Source: Abditibacteriota bacterium (GTDB taxonomy: Bacteria; Armatimonadota; UBA5829). Taken from it: 49,688 bases of DNA. Shown here in pieces: positions 23,061-44,984 of this stretch (positions are counted from its first letter, which is position 1; every line of letters begins with the position of its first letter). Location: the NCBI GenBank assembly GCA_017552965.1, contig JAFZNQ010000054.1:1-49688 (forward strand), in the 5' to 3' direction. A program made the position numbers and the translations under genes. The notes under the pieces were generated by a model, which made no database searches, had not been told where the DNA came from, and saw nothing but the letters and a program-made list of their open reading frames with translations.

Positions 23061-23106
23061 ATGTGTGCCCCCTAATCTTTTCTTCATTTTCAGACAGACA
23101 AATACT

Positions 23107-23135
23107 ATTATACACGTTTCCGGAGCGCTTGTCAA
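23107..23135 (-). promoter_or_regulatory. Consensus promoter of rplU-rpmA
   Basis: On the minus strand: TTGACA (23130-23135), a 17-base spacer, TATAAT (23107-23112). Both hexamers are perfect. The leader to the L21 start is only about 40 bases. Confidence 0.92.
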
Positions 23136-23212
23136 ATACCTCCGGAAAAAAAGGCCGGGACTTTCCGCATAAATTATTATAGCAGAATCTTCAAAAAAAA
23201 TCCCGGGGCCAG

Positions 23213-23241
23213 TTGACAGGGGCCTGTCAAAGGATTATAAT
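23213..23241 (+). promoter_or_regulatory. Consensus promoter of the structured RNA
   Basis: TTGACA (23213-23218), a 17-base spacer, TATAAT (23236-23241). This is a perfect sigma70 promoter, divergent from the rplU promoter. The expected start of transcription is about 23248-23250. Confidence 0.9.
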
Positions 23242-23247
23242 GTATAT

Positions 23248-23436
23248 GTAAGTCGCATAAACGAATGTGTATATAGCTATGAAAACCATTACTTCTCAGG
23301 TAAAATTCATTATACAGGATACTATCAAGGCGCATTTCTGGCAGAGCTGAGCGCTGCCGGAAATGCATCATCAACTCCGCAGCGCAACGACACGGCGCTG
23401 CGGTTTTATATTGCCGCAGTTTATGCGGCTTTTTTG
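23248..23436 (+). ncRNA. Putative structured small RNA of about 189 nt, family not recognised
   Basis: The unit runs from a perfect promoter to a strong terminator and has no convincing protein. The 5' end (23250-23262) can pair with the 3' end (23419-23431) over 13 consecutive base pairs with one G-U. Further pairing continues inwards: 23266-23269 with 23415-23418, and 23271-23276 with 23406-23411. Inside this closing stem are a 13-bp hairpin with one G-U (23332-23344 with 23354-23366) and a 9-bp perfect hairpin (23377-23385 with 23395-23403). A weaker arm is possible at 23280-23309. Size and paired ends recall 6S RNA, but no 6S sequence motif is seen and the interior is branched. A 23-codon ATG frame at 23279-23350 has no ribosome-binding site. 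A leader or attenuator for the gene at 23641 is the main alternative. Confidence 0.65.
23413..23435 (+). terminator. Terminator of the structured RNA
   Basis: A 6-bp GCCGCA/TGCGGC stem with a GTTTA loop and a T6-G-T5 tail. The 3' arm of this hairpin is the same sequence that can pair with the RNA 5' end, so the two structures exclude each other. Confidence 0.82.
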
Positions 23437-23582: not shown

Positions 23583-23611
23583 TGGACAACGTGTTTCAAA
23601 ACTGATATAAT
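23583..23611 (+). promoter_or_regulatory. Promoter of the acyl-CoA ligase gene
   Basis: TGGACA (23583-23588), a 17-base spacer, TATAAT (23606-23611), 30 bases before the ATG at 23641. This independent promoter argues that the upstream RNA is not simply the ligase leader. The stretch 23437-23582 holds only a weak CCGCTTC/GAAGCGG inverted repeat and no gene that I can see. Confidence 0.8.
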
Positions 23612-23640
23612 AATATTAATGATCATTAGAGGTTAACCAG

Positions 23641-24927
23641 ATGAATTACTACTTCAACGCCATGGCGGAGACCATGAGCCAGGATCAGCTGAAGACCGTT
23701 CAGCTCCGGGGCCTTCAGAGGACCATCCGCAACGCCTATATCAACAACGAGTTTTACCGCAGCAAGTTTGACGCGGCGGGAGTGAACCCCAACGACATCA
23801 AGAGCCTGGACGACCTGCCTCTCCTGGGCTTCATAGACAAGAACGACCTGCGGGACCAGTTCCCCCTGGGCATGCTGTGCAAGCCCGAAGAGGACATCAG
23901 GGAAATGCATATGTCCTCGGGTTCCACCGGGACTCCGGTGGCCATGGTGTATGACGAGCACGACCTGGACCAGTGGGCGGAATGTATGGCCCGCTGCTAT
24001 CATATGGCGGGGGTCCTGCAGGGCGACAAGGTGCAGATCACCCCTACCTTCGGCCTCTTCAACGGCGGCTTCGGCATGTATCACGGCGCCAGAAAGGCCG
24101 GCCTCTTCGTGGTGCCTGCCAGCAGCGGCAACACGGCGCGCCAGATAAGGCTCATCAACAGCTTCCACGTCAAGTGCCTGACCGGCGTGGTCAGCTACAC
24201 CATGCGCATCATGGAGGTCATGAACGAAATGGGCGTCACCATGCCTTCCCTGAAGGTGGGCATCTTCGGCGCGGAGACCTTTTCGGACAAGATGCGCGAA
24301 AAGATAGAGAAGGGCCTCAATATCGAAGCCTTTGACATCTACGGCATGACCGAGACCGGAGGCGTGGGCACCACAGGCATGGACTGCGCCGCTCACGACG
24401 GCATCCATATTTTTGAAGACCAGTATATCATCGAGATCATCGATCCGGAGACCGGCAAGGTGCTTCCGGACGGCCAGAGCGGCGAGGTGGTCTTTACCAG
24501 CCTGAACCGCAACTGCATCCCCATCATCCGCTTTAAGACCGGCGACATCAGCCGCATCATTTCCAGAGAGACCTGCGCCTGCGGCCGCACCCATGCCAGA
24601 ATAGACCGCATCAAGGGCAGGATAGACGACATGCTCATAGTCAAGGGCGTCAACTTCTTCCCCAAGCAGGTGGAGCAGGCTCTGATGGAGATCCCCGGCG
24701 TGCTGTCCGACTATCGCATCATCATCTACGAGAACCACGGCATCAAGGACGTGCGCATAGAGGTGGAGGCCGAGGAAGGAGTCACCGGCTACACCGTGGA
24801 GAAAAAGCTCAAGGAAGTGCTGGGCTTCTCTCCCAAGGGCGACGTTTACAAGCCCGGCAGCCTGCCCAGAAGCGAAGGCAAGGCCAAGAGAGTCTTTTAC
24901 CAGAACGAAAACGGCGAGCTTGTGTAG
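23641..24927 (+). CDS. Phenylacetate-CoA ligase-like AMP-forming enzyme
   Basis: A 428-residue PaaK-type adenylate-forming ligase. The AMP-binding loop is SSGSTGTPVAMVYDE, with a later YGMTETGG motif, RFKTGDIS, and the C-terminal domain IKGRIDDMLIVKGVNFFP, typical of PaaK rather than of longer acyl-CoA synthetases. Such enzymes activate aromatic acids (phenylacetate, indoleacetate) to CoA thioesters. No other phenylacetate pathway gene is nearby; in anaerobes PaaK homologues often pair with indolepyruvate oxidoreductase, which is not seen here. The substrate is therefore open. The permease gene follows 3 bases after the stop. Confidence 0.88.
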   Translation: MNYYFNAMAETMSQDQLKTVQLRGLQRTIRNAYINNEFYRSKFDAAGVNPNDIKSLDDLPLLGFIDKNDLRDQFPLGMLCKPEEDIREMHMSSGSTGTPVAMVYDEHDLDQWAECMARCYHMAGVLQGDKVQITPTFGLFNGGFGMYHGARKAGLFVVPASSGNTARQIRLINSFHVKCLTGVVSYTMRIMEVMNEMGVTMPSLKVGIFGAETFSDKMREKIEKGLNIEAFDIYGMTETGGVGTTGMDCAAHDGIHIFEDQYIIEIIDPETGKVLPDGQSGEVVFTSLNRNCIPIIRFKTGDISRIISRETCACGRTHARIDRIKGRIDDMLIVKGVNFFPKQVEQALMEIPGVLSDYRIIIYENHGIKDVRIEVEAEEGVTGYTVEKKLKEVLGFSPKGDVYKPGSLPRSEGKAKRVFYQNENGELV

Positions 24928-24930
24928 AGC

Positions 24931-25980
24931 ATGAAAGCCGTTACCCCCCGCACGATCTACGGAGCGGTGTGCCTCACCCTGATCCTGCTGCTTTTGGCAA
25001 AATTTGCGGGAGCCATGTCCTCCGTCATCATCAGTCTTGCGCTGTCTGCCATTCTGGCGGCGGCGCTGGACGCGCCCGTCAGCTGGCTGGAACGGCGCAG
25101 GGTCTCCCGCAGCGTGGGGACCTTTTTGTGCGTTGTGGCGGCGCTGGGGCTGGCGGTGTTTGCAGTCAGGCTGGTGGCCCCAATGGTCAGCAGCCAGGCC
25201 CAGGCCCTGTCGGACCAGTGCCCCCGCTTGGTGAAGCAGCTGGACGCCAAGGCCGAAAAGTATCTGAAGACCATCAAGGTGGATCCCAGACACCTGGATC
25301 TGGCCAAGCTGGACATCAAGCCCGGCGCCGTGGCCAAGGGCGTGGCCGGCAGCGCCGCCTGGGTGGGTCAGAACGCTCTGAGCGCTCTGACCGGGGCCTT
25401 TTTGGTGATAGTCTTTACCATATATATCCTCATAGAGCCCAGGCCTCTCATCAAAGGGGCGCTGCACCCGTGGCCTGCGGACGTCCGCAAAAAGATACGC
25501 CGGTGCCTCATCCGCATTAAGAAGGCCATTTCCTACTGGGTCGTGGGCCTTATGCTGGGCAGCTGCTGCATATTTTTGCTCACCTGGCTGGGGCTCTCCC
25601 TGATCAGGATGCCCAACGCCTTCCTGTTCGCCGTCATTGCCGGCCTGATGAACATCATCCCCACTCTGGGGCCCATCCTTTCGGCGGTGCCTCCCGTGCT
25701 CATAGCCATAATAACCAACCCGGTCATGATCCTGAAGGTCATAGTGGTCTACGTGGTGGTGCAGCAGTGCGAAGGGCACCTGGTGACCCCTCTGGTCATG
25801 CAGAAGCAGCTCTCCATACACCCGGTGGTGCTGCTCTTCTCCATATTCGTTATGGGCACCCTGTTCGGGGTGGCGGGCATATTCATCACCGCCCCCGTGG
25901 TGGCTTCCGTGGGCATCATCTACGACGAATTCTACGCCAAGGAGGCCCGGCGCCGGGCGGGGAAAAGCTCCGGCGGATAA
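24931..25980 (+). CDS. AI-2E family (PerM/YdiK-type) membrane transporter
   Basis: A 349-residue polytopic protein with hydrophobic segments near residues 8-26, 30-46, 60-80, 145-165, 200-225, 228-250, 255-290 and 300-335. The family core is clear: a soluble region after the third segment, then FTIYILIEP, the AVIAGLMNIIPTLGPILSAVPPVLIA signature, VVQQCEGHLVTPLVMQKQLSIHP, and a final G-x-F-x-A-P pair. Members have been linked to AI-2 export, Na+/H+ antiport or lipid transport, so the cargo is uncertain. It is probably co-transcribed with the ligase gene. Confidence 0.88.
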   Translation: MKAVTPRTIYGAVCLTLILLLLAKFAGAMSSVIISLALSAILAAALDAPVSWLERRRVSRSVGTFLCVVAALGLAVFAVRLVAPMVSSQAQALSDQCPRLVKQLDAKAEKYLKTIKVDPRHLDLAKLDIKPGAVAKGVAGSAAWVGQNALSALTGAFLVIVFTIYILIEPRPLIKGALHPWPADVRKKIRRCLIRIKKAISYWVVGLMLGSCCIFLLTWLGLSLIRMPNAFLFAVIAGLMNIIPTLGPILSAVPPVLIAIITNPVMILKVIVVYVVVQQCEGHLVTPLVMQKQLSIHPVVLLFSIFVMGTLFGVAGIFITAPVVASVGIIYDEFYAKEARRRAGKSSGG

Positions 25981-26104: not shown

Positions 26105-27703
26105 ATGATGAATTACCGGAGACATTTGAGATCCGTTCCCTTTACGGTCCTGTTTGCGGTTGTCTGCGCGGCGCTGGTCATTCTCGGGCGGACACTGCCC
26201 TTCGGAAGCACCGTGAGAATCGGGGACATGCCGTTTCCCTACACCGATGCCTTTGTCATGATCTCTTACGGGCTCGGAGGGCTGGGCTGCGGATTATTAT
26301 CCTTTGTCATCCTTTTCGCCGGAGAATTTATGCTGGCGGAAGGAAACCCTTCCATATACGCCTCTTCCGTTTATCTGATAATCGGGCTGGCTTTCTCTGC
26401 CATGTCCTTCAACGGCTGGTTTGCGGACGTGAAGAAAACGCTTTCCGGCATTGTCCTGCTGTCCGTCCTGCTTGCGCTTTCCTGGCATTTTGCTTTTACC
26501 GTCCTGGCAGTCGATGCCGACACCTCGAATATGTTATACGGTATACCTGTCCCCAAGCTCTTTCTCTGCGCGCTGCCTCAGACCGTTCTGGCGGTCCTGG
26601 CTGTCGGCGGTTTTTTCAAATACGCGCCGGACAAATACAAGCGTATTGCCGGCTGGGCCGACCGGGACATATTCAGCGCCCGCGAAGGGGAGAACAGGTC
26701 TGTCCTGGCAAGGCGCATCACCTTATTGTCCCTGTTGGGGTCTGTACTGCTGGGCGCCGCCGCGATATTCAGCGCGTGTCTGTTCTCGGCCGCGGGTGAA
26801 GGGGTACCCTTCAGCCTCGGATATTTTGTTTCCAGATGGCAGTTTAACCTGCAGCTGGGACTGATGATGCTGTGCACCTCCGCGCCGGTTGCCTTCCTGG
26901 TAAATCTGTACGTCATGATGAGGGTCGCCGTTCCCATCAATGAAATGTCGTATTTGACGGAAAAATACTACGAGGATGGAGATGAGCTCCGTCCGGAGGA
27001 GTTCTCGGAGCTGCGGATCCGTACCGGCGACGAGATAGAAAAGCTCTATCGCAGTATGCTGAAAATGCAGGGAGATATATCCTCGTATATCGCCCGTCTC
27101 GTTGAAGAGGAACGCCATTCGGCGCACCTGACAAAGGAGTTCATGCTGGCTCTCTCCAAAGCCGTTGACGCCAAGGATCACTATACCAGCGGCCATTCGC
27201 AGCGGGTAGCGGAATACTCGAGAGAGATCGCAAGACGGATGGGCAAAAGCCTCGGGGAGCAGGAAGATATCTACACCATGGGGCTGCTGCATGACATCGG
27301 AAAGATCGGCGTTCCGGAGTCCATCATCAATAAGAAAGGGAAGCTGACCGATGAGGAGTTTCAGGCTGTCAGGGAGCATCCTGTGACGGGACATGAGATA
27401 CTGAAGACCGTTGAGGAGATCCCCCGACTGGCTGTCGGAGCGCGCTGGCATCACGAAAGGTATGACGGACGCGGCTATCCGGACGGGCTGAAGGACGGCG
27501 AAATACCGGAGGAGGCGCGGATCATAGGCGTGGCCGATGCGTATGACGCTATGACCAGCAATCGAAGCTATCGCAACGTCATGCCCCGGGAAAAAGTGCG
27601 GGAACAGATAGAGAACGGCAGGGGGACGCAGTTTGACCCCCGCATCGCAGACGTGATGCTGACTATGATGGAAGAGGATAAGGAATTCCGGATGCAGGAG
27701 TAA
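26105..27703 (+). CDS. Membrane-bound HD-GYP domain protein (c-di-GMP phosphodiesterase type)
   Basis: A 532-residue protein. The N-terminal 290 residues contain about six to eight hydrophobic segments, forming a membrane sensor module. A HAMP-like linker (VAVPINEMSYLTEKYYED to ELRIRTGDEIEKLYRSMLKM) and a short coiled coil lead into the HD-GYP domain (about 350-510): GHSQRVAEYSREIA, the metal-binding LLHDIGKIGVPE (His-Asp near 396), HPVTGHEIL, HHERYDGRGYPDG (GYP near 456) and VADAYDAMTSNRSYR. All metal ligands look intact, so it is probably an active phosphodiesterase. AGGTGAG at 26093-26099 precedes the ATG. Codon use seems less GC-biased than its neighbours, which may mean transfer. Confidence 0.9.
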   Translation: MMNYRRHLRSVPFTVLFAVVCAALVILGRTLPFGSTVRIGDMPFPYTDAFVMISYGLGGLGCGLLSFVILFAGEFMLAEGNPSIYASSVYLIIGLAFSAMSFNGWFADVKKTLSGIVLLSVLLALSWHFAFTVLAVDADTSNMLYGIPVPKLFLCALPQTVLAVLAVGGFFKYAPDKYKRIAGWADRDIFSAREGENRSVLARRITLLSLLGSVLLGAAAIFSACLFSAAGEGVPFSLGYFVSRWQFNLQLGLMMLCTSAPVAFLVNLYVMMRVAVPINEMSYLTEKYYEDGDELRPEEFSELRIRTGDEIEKLYRSMLKMQGDISSYIARLVEEERHSAHLTKEFMLALSKAVDAKDHYTSGHSQRVAEYSREIARRMGKSLGEQEDIYTMGLLHDIGKIGVPESIINKKGKLTDEEFQAVREHPVTGHEILKTVEEIPRLAVGARWHHERYDGRGYPDGLKDGEIPEEARIIGVADAYDAMTSNRSYRNVMPREKVREQIENGRGTQFDPRIADVMLTMMEEDKEFRMQE

Positions 27704-42480: not shown

Positions 42481-43169
42481 TGAGAGAATTGTTGCGAAGC
42501 GAGATCACCGGCTGGAAATGGTGGGAGGTCCTGTGGCTGGCAGTGGGCGTGTCGGCGGTGACAGCCGCCTCGCTGCTCTTTCACAGCCCGGGCCTGCGCA
42601 TATTCCAGGCGGTCTGCGGCGTGGTGTCGGTGATACTCATGGGCAAGGGCAAGCCTCTGGGCTTTGTGTTCGGAGCGGTGAACGCCCTGCTGTATTCATG
42701 GGTGTCCTGGCAGGTGCCCTATTACGGCGAAGTGGCCCTGAATATGCTCTACTACGTGCCCGCCAACGTCATAGGCTTTTTTACCTGGCGGCGCTATATG
42801 AACAGCGGTACTCTGGAGGTCATCAAGAAGAAGCTGCCCCCCGCAGGCGCTGTGGCCGTCTATGTGGGTACGGCGGCCGCCATAGTGGTGTTTGGCCTGG
42901 TCCTGAAGGCCATAAAGGGCAGCCTGCCCTTTGTGGACGCCACCAGCACCGTGGTGGCGGTGGTGGCCATGATACTGGGCATCAGGAGATATTCGGAGAC
43001 CTGGTTTTTGTGGATCGGCTCCAATACCGTGTCCGTCATCATGTGGGTGTATCAGGTGAACAGGGGCGGCGAGATGGTGAATCTGCCTGTGGTCCTCATG
43101 TGGAGCGTGTTTACCGCAAACAGCGTGTTCAGCTGCATCAGGTGGTACAGGGAAGCCTCCCGGAAGTAA
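42480..43169 (+). CDS. pnuC: PnuC-type nicotinamide riboside/NMN transporter
   Basis: A 229-residue membrane protein with seven or so hydrophobic segments and PnuC hallmarks: WEVLWLAVG at the start, GKPLGFVFGAVNALLYSW, the AxNMLYYVPANVIGFFTWRR segment, and ETWFLWIGSNTVSVIMWV near the end. PnuC proteins take up nicotinamide riboside; homologues for thiamine and riboflavin exist, so the vitamin is not certain. ATG 42480 overlaps the radA stop and is spaced 5 bases from GGAG. It closes the unit; a long hairpin follows. Confidence 0.9.
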   Translation: MRELLRSEITGWKWWEVLWLAVGVSAVTAASLLFHSPGLRIFQAVCGVVSVILMGKGKPLGFVFGAVNALLYSWVSWQVPYYGEVALNMLYYVPANVIGFFTWRRYMNSGTLEVIKKKLPPAGAVAVYVGTAAAIVVFGLVLKAIKGSLPFVDATSTVVAVVAMILGIRRYSETWFLWIGSNTVSVIMWVYQVNRGGEMVNLPVVLMWSVFTANSVFSCIRWYREASRK

Positions 43170-43170
43170 G

Positions 43171-43205
43171 AAAAAAAAGGCAGTCCTGCGGGACTGCCTT
43201 TTTTT
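43171..43205. terminator. Strong bidirectional terminator
   Basis: A-run (43171-43178), GGCAGTCC / GGACTGCC stem around TGCG, T-run (43199-43205). Works for pnuC on the plus strand and can stop minus-strand transcription of the isomerase gene. Confidence 0.93.
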
Positions 43206-43235
43206 GCGTTTCGGGGGCGTGACGCCAAAAGGACA

Positions 43236-43260
43236 GGGTCGGAGACAATGTCTCCGACCC
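43236..43260 (-). terminator. Hairpin after the isomerase gene
   Basis: Perfect inverted repeat GGGTCGGAGACA/TGTCTCCGACCC (43236-43247 with 43249-43260). On the minus strand it is followed by TGTCCTTTTGG, a weak U-tract, so it may instead protect the 3' end of the isomerase mRNA. Confidence 0.55.
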
Positions 43261-43280
43261 GGTATTTGCAGTCAGCTGTG

Positions 43281-44984
43281 TCAGAGCTTTTTGGCCAGCA
43301 TCAGCTTGGTGTTGTCCTCGCCGCCGTTGGCCAGATACAGGAGAGGCATAGGCCTGTCCACTCCTTCGATGTAGGAGGGGCGGGCGTTCCAGGCCTGCTG
43401 GCTGAGCACGTTGCAGAGGTCCATCCAGTATTCCAGCACCGCGGGCTTGAGGCCCTCTATCATGTGGATATGGTTGGCGGGCGGGAAGTGCTTGTATTCG
43501 TTCATGGTGGCGTATTTGGGCGTCAGGAAGGTGTGAGGCCAGGTGGGGTCCGTCAGGTCCGCAAATTCCTTGCGCATATCTGCAGGTATGTCCGCCGTCT
43601 CGGCTTCGTCCCAGCTCATGGAGAAGAGGCCGCTGATCTCAGAATACATCATCCTGCCGGCTATGCCCTTTATGCCGCCGGGGGAATGGAAGCAGGCGGA
43701 GTTGCCGCCGCCGATAAAGTAGGCGGGGTCTGCCAGAGGGAAGGTGACGTTCTTCATGAGGGCGTCCACGCTGTCGCCGGGCATGCCGGCCCAGTCAAAG
43801 GCTGCGGAGCCGGAGTTGTTGCCGTCCACGAAGCCCTTGCCGGCCCACAGAGCGTTCTCGTCGATGGAGATGCCTTTTTCCGCTGCCAGAGCCTTGATCT
43901 CGTCGGGCTCCCACACCTTGCGGAAGTCCATGAAGAGAGGAGCCTTGCCTGCGGTGAGGCAGGAGAAGATGAGCATGGTGAGCATGCCCTGCATGTCCGC
44001 TTCGGTGGCGAAGGGGATGGGGGCCTTTTTGCCCTGATGGTCAAAGGTGGAGTTGAAGAAGCACTCGGCTATGTCGGGAGTGGCCATGCCGATGCCCCGC
44101 TTGTCGGAGCCCCATTCCAGCTGGTTCATAAAGCCGCCGCCTATGGCGTTCAGGTCCTTGAGGAAGTCTCTGAGCACCAGATACATGGCGCAGGACTCTT
44201 CGAACTTGGCTTCGTCGTCCGCATTGTTCAGCTGGACGCCGCCGCTCTTGGCCTTGAGCCAGGAGGCCAGCTCCTTCTGCTCCTTCTTGCAGTAGGCTTC
44301 CTTGCGCATCAGGTCGCTGATGAGCTTCATATCCACCCGGGCAAATTCCAGACCGAACTGCTTGCGCACGGGGATGATGTGGGCCATGGCGGTCTCCATA
44401 CCCATGGAGTCGTGGCCTATGACGGCTACCCGCTTGCCCTTCAGATACTGCTTGGTGACGGCGGCGTGGCACCAGTCCACCAGTCTGTCAATGGTGTCGG
44501 GCTTGACCTTGGGGAACATGCCCCGGTCCTCCCAGGTGCCCACGTTCATGTGGATGAGCCTGTACTGGCTGACGGCGCCGGCGGTGGCCTGGGCATACAC
44601 CACGCCCGGCTTGGGGCCCGCGTTGCCGCAGGTCAGGTTGATGGGAGTATCCTTGGGGAAGTGGGCCATCAGGGAAATGGTGGTCAGCTGGGGGAAGGAC
44701 CAGGTGTCGGGCACTCCCACCAGAATGTTCACTCCGGCCTCCTTGAAGGCGGCGGCCACTATGTCGGCGGTCTTTTCGCCGTCCACCAGAGTGCGGGAAT
44801 AGACCACCTGGCAGGGCTCGCCGGTAGGGAGCAGCACTCTGCCTTCGATGGAGTCGGCAATGATCTTGACTATATTGCGGCACCTGTCTCTGACGGTCTC
44901 GTCGAGACGGGGGTCGCCGGGGGCAAATACGCCTATGACCGGGTTGTTGGCGCGGTGTGAGTCTGCTAATTCGATAGCGGGCAT
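43281..44984 (-). CDS. fucI: L-fucose/D-arabinose isomerase family protein
   Basis: A 567-residue FucI-type isomerase. The Mn2+ and catalytic residues expected from E. coli FucI are present: Glu in PFATEADMQG, Asp in PLFMDFRKV, and His in PPANHIHMIEG. N-terminal features include IGVFAPGDPRLDE and VVYSRTLVDGE. FucI interconverts L-fucose and L-fuculose and also D-arabinose and D-ribulose, so either sugar is possible. AAGGAGATTAAAC precedes the ATG, which lies 2 bases from the stop of the secreted protein gene. It is the last gene of a unit starting with GH172. No fuculose or ribulose kinase is in the window. Confidence 0.88.
   Translation of the reverse strand: MPAIELADSHRANNPVIGVFAPGDPRLDETVRDRCRNIVKIIADSIEGRVLLPTGEPCQVVYSRTLVDGEKTADIVAAAFKEAGVNILVGVPDTWSFPQLTTISLMAHFPKDTPINLTCGNAGPKPGVVYAQATAGAVSQYRLIHMNVGTWEDRGMFPKVKPDTIDRLVDWCHAAVTKQYLKGKRVAVIGHDSMGMETAMAHIIPVRKQFGLEFARVDMKLISDLMRKEAYCKKEQKELASWLKAKSGGVQLNNADDEAKFEESCAMYLVLRDFLKDLNAIGGGFMNQLEWGSDKRGIGMATPDIAECFFNSTFDHQGKKAPIPFATEADMQGMLTMLIFSCLTAGKAPLFMDFRKVWEPDEIKALAAEKGISIDENALWAGKGFVDGNNSGSAAFDWAGMPGDSVDALMKNVTFPLADPAYFIGGGNSACFHSPGGIKGIAGRMMYSEISGLFSMSWDEAETADIPADMRKEFADLTDPTWPHTFLTPKYATMNEYKHFPPANHIHMIEGLKPAVLEYWMDLCNVLSQQAWNARPSYIEGVDRPMPLLYLANGGEDNTKLMLAKKL

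Follow-up and report, generated by a model that had tools for sequence, protein, structure and literature searches.

What does a bacterium make from a stretch of DNA that begins with a perfect promoter, ends with an intrinsic terminator and encodes no plausible protein? The question is raised by a locus in the 49,688-nt contig C54 (the window), part of an Abditibacteriota genome that totals 2.78 Mb and is split into 138 contigs. The locus lies between rplU on the minus strand and the gene of an AMP-binding ligase on the plus strand, which is followed by the gene of an AI-2E family permease. The nearest named relative, Abditibacteriota bacterium RGIG10284 (G002), belongs to the same genus and was assembled from yak rumen; we infer that the host genome is likewise of rumen origin.

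Promoter, terminator and paired ends

Transcription is predicted to start from a sigma-70 type promoter on the plus strand, TTGACA-N17-TATAAT (23213-23241), which agrees with the consensus at 12 of 12 positions with a 17-base spacer, just as the initial annotation had it. Perfect promoters of this kind occur 50 times in the genome, compared to none for the reversed pattern, and the consensus is thus really in use in the host. Of the 30 sites inspected together with their surroundings, most precede genes or tRNAs, so that a perfect promoter is in itself not rare here. Its spacing places the predicted transcription start at 23248-23250, 6 to 8 nt past the -10 hexamer. The other end is provided by an intrinsic terminator on the same strand (23413-23436), composed of a stem (23413-23429) followed by UUUUUUG. 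The unit would therefore measure about 187 nt, close to the 189 nt or so estimated earlier, with GCCGCAGTTTATGCGGC-TTTTTTG as its 3' end, and the sequence speaks clearly for a discrete, promoter-driven and terminated structured RNA, as had been proposed. The -35 hexamer is spanned by an inverted repeat, TTGACAG-GGGC-CTGTCAA (23213-23230), which is a possible operator; a regulon under its control is unsupported, as both of the other genomic copies that were inspected lie within genes. The divergent promoter of rplU, a perfect one outside the RNA unit (minus strand, 23107-23135), also has inverted repeats flanking its -35 hexamer (CCGGAG..TTGACA..CTCCGG).

The stretch from 23249 to 23436 folds to -68.3 kcal/mol (z -5.9), and none of 200 shuffled sequences folds as low. 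This is within the top 1 % of 660 stretches of the contig, but it is not the most structured among them. Most of the energy is contributed by two hairpins, the strong internal ones of the initial annotation, on the plus strand at 23332-23366 (15 pairs, P 0.98-1.0, z -5.2) and 23377-23403 (9 pairs, P 0.95-1.0, z -4.4). They are separated by the unpaired linker AUCAUCAACU (23367-23376), a possible target seed. The sequence that precedes them (23263-23331) is A+U-rich, poorly structured and contains a frame of 23 codons; the 5' third of the RNA as a whole (23249-23330) folds no better than shuffled sequence (z about +0.8).

The two ends of the predicted RNA are joined by a closing stem, in which the 5' arm AAGUCGCAUAAAC (23250-23262) pairs with a 3' arm (23419-23431) that overlaps the loop and the 3' arm of the terminator. 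The 13 consecutive pairs described earlier are indeed present, one of them a G-U pair, with pair probabilities of 0.73-1.0 that approach 1 except for the outermost pair; the stem persists when another start site is chosen and at temperatures of up to 55 °C. When the 5' part was shuffled, 13 pairs were obtained once in 2000 trials and the duplex energy of -18.6 in none of the 2000. The helix starts 1-3 nt from the predicted transcript start and stops at the U tract. It had also been thought to continue inwards through two further helices; both are predicted (23266-23269 with 23415-23418, and 23271-23275 with 23407-23411), but they are weak, with probabilities of 0.33-0.49. The competition between the 5' end and the terminator for one and the same 3' arm, on which the idea of a switch was based, is real in energetic terms, since the closed form (-68.3 kcal/mol) is better by 5.7 than the form that retains the terminator (-62.6 kcal/mol). 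On these computed energies a switch between the two forms is physically possible.

Both the perfect promoter and terminator, which frame a single structured unit without a protein, and the end helix, which exceeds chance and is bounded exactly by the predicted start and the U tract, support the existence of an RNA gene. The reading towards which we lean on this sequence evidence is a stand-alone, lineage-specific gene for a small non-coding RNA of about 187 nt, which most likely acts as a regulator in trans.

Distribution among relatives

The initial annotation had looked to relatives for conservation of the closing stem and had counted its lack against the proposed RNA. When 291 genomes of the phylum, among them the host itself and two other species of its genus, were searched at the DNA level, the RNA was found in its own genome and in none of the 290 others at E values up to 0.001; a DNA search of relatives with E values allowed up to 1 turned up nothing but short matches attributable to chance. 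A covariance model built from the single sequence matched only the RNA itself and its own reverse strand, and none of the 27 other genomes of the class gave a hit. Phage and plasmid records contained no match to the RNA, and exact patterns run against IMG/VR gave scattered matches of 16 to 17 bases without extension. So far as these searches reach, the stem is not conserved.

For the host and G002, the syntenic spacer is decisive. In G002, rplU (86 % protein identity) and the ligase gene (98 %) are found in the same order, and the DNA similarity reaches to about 23136 in blastn, or to about 23183 when the sequences are aligned, and restarts at 23603. The spacer between the two genes is about 160 nt long in G002 compared to about 466 nt here, that is about 300 nt shorter, and the RNA is absent from it. 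A conserved RNA would have been noticed by this method: blastn found the 6S region of G002 (72 % over 1751 bases), and the leader RNA of S-layer-type genes of the host is readily recovered there at 74-78 %. The absence of the paired-end RNA is therefore informative, with the proviso that the G002 assembly is 84 % complete and a copy that had moved could sit in the missing part. In the more distant genome G001 blastn is weak, and even the 6S region matches over just 23 bases. Without a homologue, neither covariation nor any trace of selection on the structure is seen, which speaks against a regulatory RNA.

This is precisely what would be expected of an inert transcribed unit, in which a promoter and a terminator came together recently in an intergenic spacer of high turnover and the pairing is a by-product of palindrome-rich DNA. 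Indeed, the two species of the genus differ completely in the spacer that separates rplU from the ligase gene, and inverted repeats abound on both strands of the whole stretch. However, an inert transcript does not predict pairing at the exact ends of the RNA at an energy that shuffled sequences never attain, nor a perfect consensus promoter of a type found here as a rule at genes and tRNAs. We regard the inert transcript as a doubtful reading, albeit the most serious of the alternatives.

A candidate regulatory RNA and the remaining alternatives

The preferred reading, a small regulatory RNA restricted to its lineage, can be put as a sequence of events. Transcription would start from the strong promoter at about 23248-23250 and the RNA would be released at the terminator near 23435. 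Minimum-energy folds of the growing transcript were computed, and since the closed form needs the finished 3' arm, the likely order is formation of the terminator hairpin, release and then exchange to the closed form. In this exchange the 3' arm of the terminator would leave its hairpin and pair with the 5' end of the transcript instead, placing the 5' triphosphate end in the 13-pair helix and leaving only the U tail free. It is established that hiding the 5' end of an RNA in a helix slows 5'-end-dependent cleavage, and the paired ends would in this way shield the RNA from 5'-end-dependent decay. The free U tail would be available for putative binding by Hfq, and the A+U-rich segment (23263-23331) and the linker (23367-23376) would be the likely contacts with target mRNAs.

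Several traits are shared with the Hfq-dependent sRNAs. The candidate is by its sequence a stand-alone transcription unit with its own promoter, an intrinsic terminator and a free U tail, it has an exposed A+U-rich segment, it falls into their size range, and an hfq gene is present in the genome (PF17209, 86.1 bits, G000:C101:65729-65923). A 13-pair helix joining the very ends, in turn, is not known to be usual in trans-acting sRNAs that depend on Hfq. Strong G+C-rich hairpins are not unique to this RNA within the contig, which also counts against the reading. Hfq-dependent sRNAs pair with their target mRNAs, as a rule close to the ribosome binding site. As to possible targets, the exact complement (11-mer) of the linker occurs at four other sites in the genome, all within coding frames, and that of a second exposed segment (13-mer) at no other site; exact complements of these two segments thus revealed no target genome-wide. 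The distribution is alike as well: a large part of the RNAs bound by Hfq is known to be accessory (PMC8913705), a pattern that the absence from the G002 spacer fits.

The initial annotation had seen no plausible protein in the unit, and the reading frames bear this out: the longest plus-strand frame wholly within it has 27 codons from a GTG at 23267, or 23 from an ATG at 23279 (23279-23350), and neither start is preceded by a Shine-Dalgarno sequence, whereas the neighbouring rplU has one. The shorter frame could nevertheless belong to the mRNA of a type I toxin-like peptide, locked by its paired ends in the manner of hok and opened to translation only once its 3' end had been trimmed. In hok, end pairing of the mRNA blocks translation, as summarised in a review (PMC4147584, citing Franch and Gerdes 1996). 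The candidate resembles mRNAs of this type in that the ends of the full-length transcript pair and a small frame is present, here within the less structured 5' part, and a lineage-specific distribution is common for such loci. It differs from them by the missing Shine-Dalgarno sequence, by a peptide, MKTITSQVKFIIQDTIKAHFWQS, that is not of the hydrophobic membrane type (its average hydropathy is near zero by hand arithmetic), and by the lack of an antisense promoter of at least 9/12 on the minus strand within 23249-23436, a threshold below which weaker promoters may remain. The hok mRNA is also about twice as long as the candidate. A toxin mRNA is therefore improbable.

The unit could also be a terminated leader of the AMP-binding ligase gene, in which the 5' arm would act as antiterminator by engaging the 3' arm of the terminator. 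The ligase gene is the next one downstream on the same strand, and the 5' arm and the terminator stem do compete for a single 3' arm. However, the gene lies 205 nt away and is separated from the unit by a near-perfect promoter of its own (plus strand, 23583-23611, TGGACA-N17-TATAAT with TG), and so the RNA is not needed as its leader; the orthologous ligase of G002, with 98 % protein identity, has no such leader. Moreover, the closed form likewise presents a stem, of 13 pairs, followed by the U tract and need not block termination. Attenuation is thus distinctly unlikely.

Finally, a second 6S-like or other housekeeping RNA with paired ends is very improbable: a length of about 187 nt and paired ends do recall 6S RNA (RF00013), but the interior is branched, with two hairpins at P near 1 in place of the single long 6S-type rod with its central bubble, neither the 6S nor the SRP models of Rfam match at E up to 10, and the true 6S gene of the genome lies elsewhere (G000:C76:86834-87045, 47.3 bits at a cut-off of 46.4). 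A 6S RNA is found in most relatives too. The kinship with conserved paired-end RNAs such as 6S and SRP that had been considered at first is accordingly not borne out. The statement that no family could be recognised stands, since Rfam as a whole returned only chance matches, at gathering level as well as at E up to 10. A transposable element of the inverted-repeat type, in which the closing arms would serve as terminal repeats, was rejected: the sequence is single-copy, no target-site duplication was seen and the promoter lies outside the repeats. Nor does the context suggest a retron, the flanking genes being rplU and those of the ligase and the AI-2E permease, with no adjacent reverse transcriptase.

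An ordinary regulatory RNA, specific to its lineage, is the most likely identity of the candidate, rather than a new class of RNA machine. That it might be a small RNA of a new kind, which exchange of the terminator 3' arm would toggle between a form that is locked and stable and one that is open and active, seems to us a rather distant prospect. If both forms exist, they would show on a small scale how a terminator can serve a second time, as the lock on the completed RNA. The papers searched describe no small RNA in Abditibacteriota, and the candidate, if confirmed, would be the first regulatory RNA of the phylum. For now it is an orphan, and any bacterial genome yields a great many such candidates.

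Neighbouring sequences and the leader of SLH-like genes

The most structured of the 660 stretches of the contig is the minus strand at 23099-23286 (z -6.6), which is the upstream region of rplU. Another low value (z about -6, 43049-43386) is accounted for by a strong hairpin at 43179-43206, which lies between convergent genes, has A and T runs on either side and is probably a two-way terminator. Downstream of the RNA, the ligase and permease genes (23603-25958) have 90.7 % DNA identity to G002, compared to 72-79 % for the adjoining stretches. This difference suggests that the two-gene block, whose left edge adjoins the spacer of the RNA, was recently recombined or transferred. An HD-GYP-type gene (HD_5, 26105-27703) between the permease gene and a glycosidase-like gene is absent at that position in G002.

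Elsewhere in the genome, the genes for SLH (S-layer homology)-like proteins read so far have a leader of about 175 nt in common, which in three cases is preceded by a perfect consensus promoter. Copies are located at C4:65638-65821 (L164:1501-1684, minus strand), C4:63106-63282, C59:19832-20003 and C6:6098-6148 (L166, L168 and L170) in this genome, and at L165, L167, L169 and L171 in G002. The leader has no match in Rfam. Six aligned copies from the two species share the invariant blocks GGCGCAGC...AAGGAGGTGA, GAGT..GCTGTGAGTGCC and TGCAGG.AACA.GGATACTGC, which lie partly in predicted loops, and 3 of the 25 consensus pairs show double changes. From these alignments, the leader is a candidate cis-regulatory RNA whose conservation exceeds that of the paired-end RNA, and it looks the more promising of the two.
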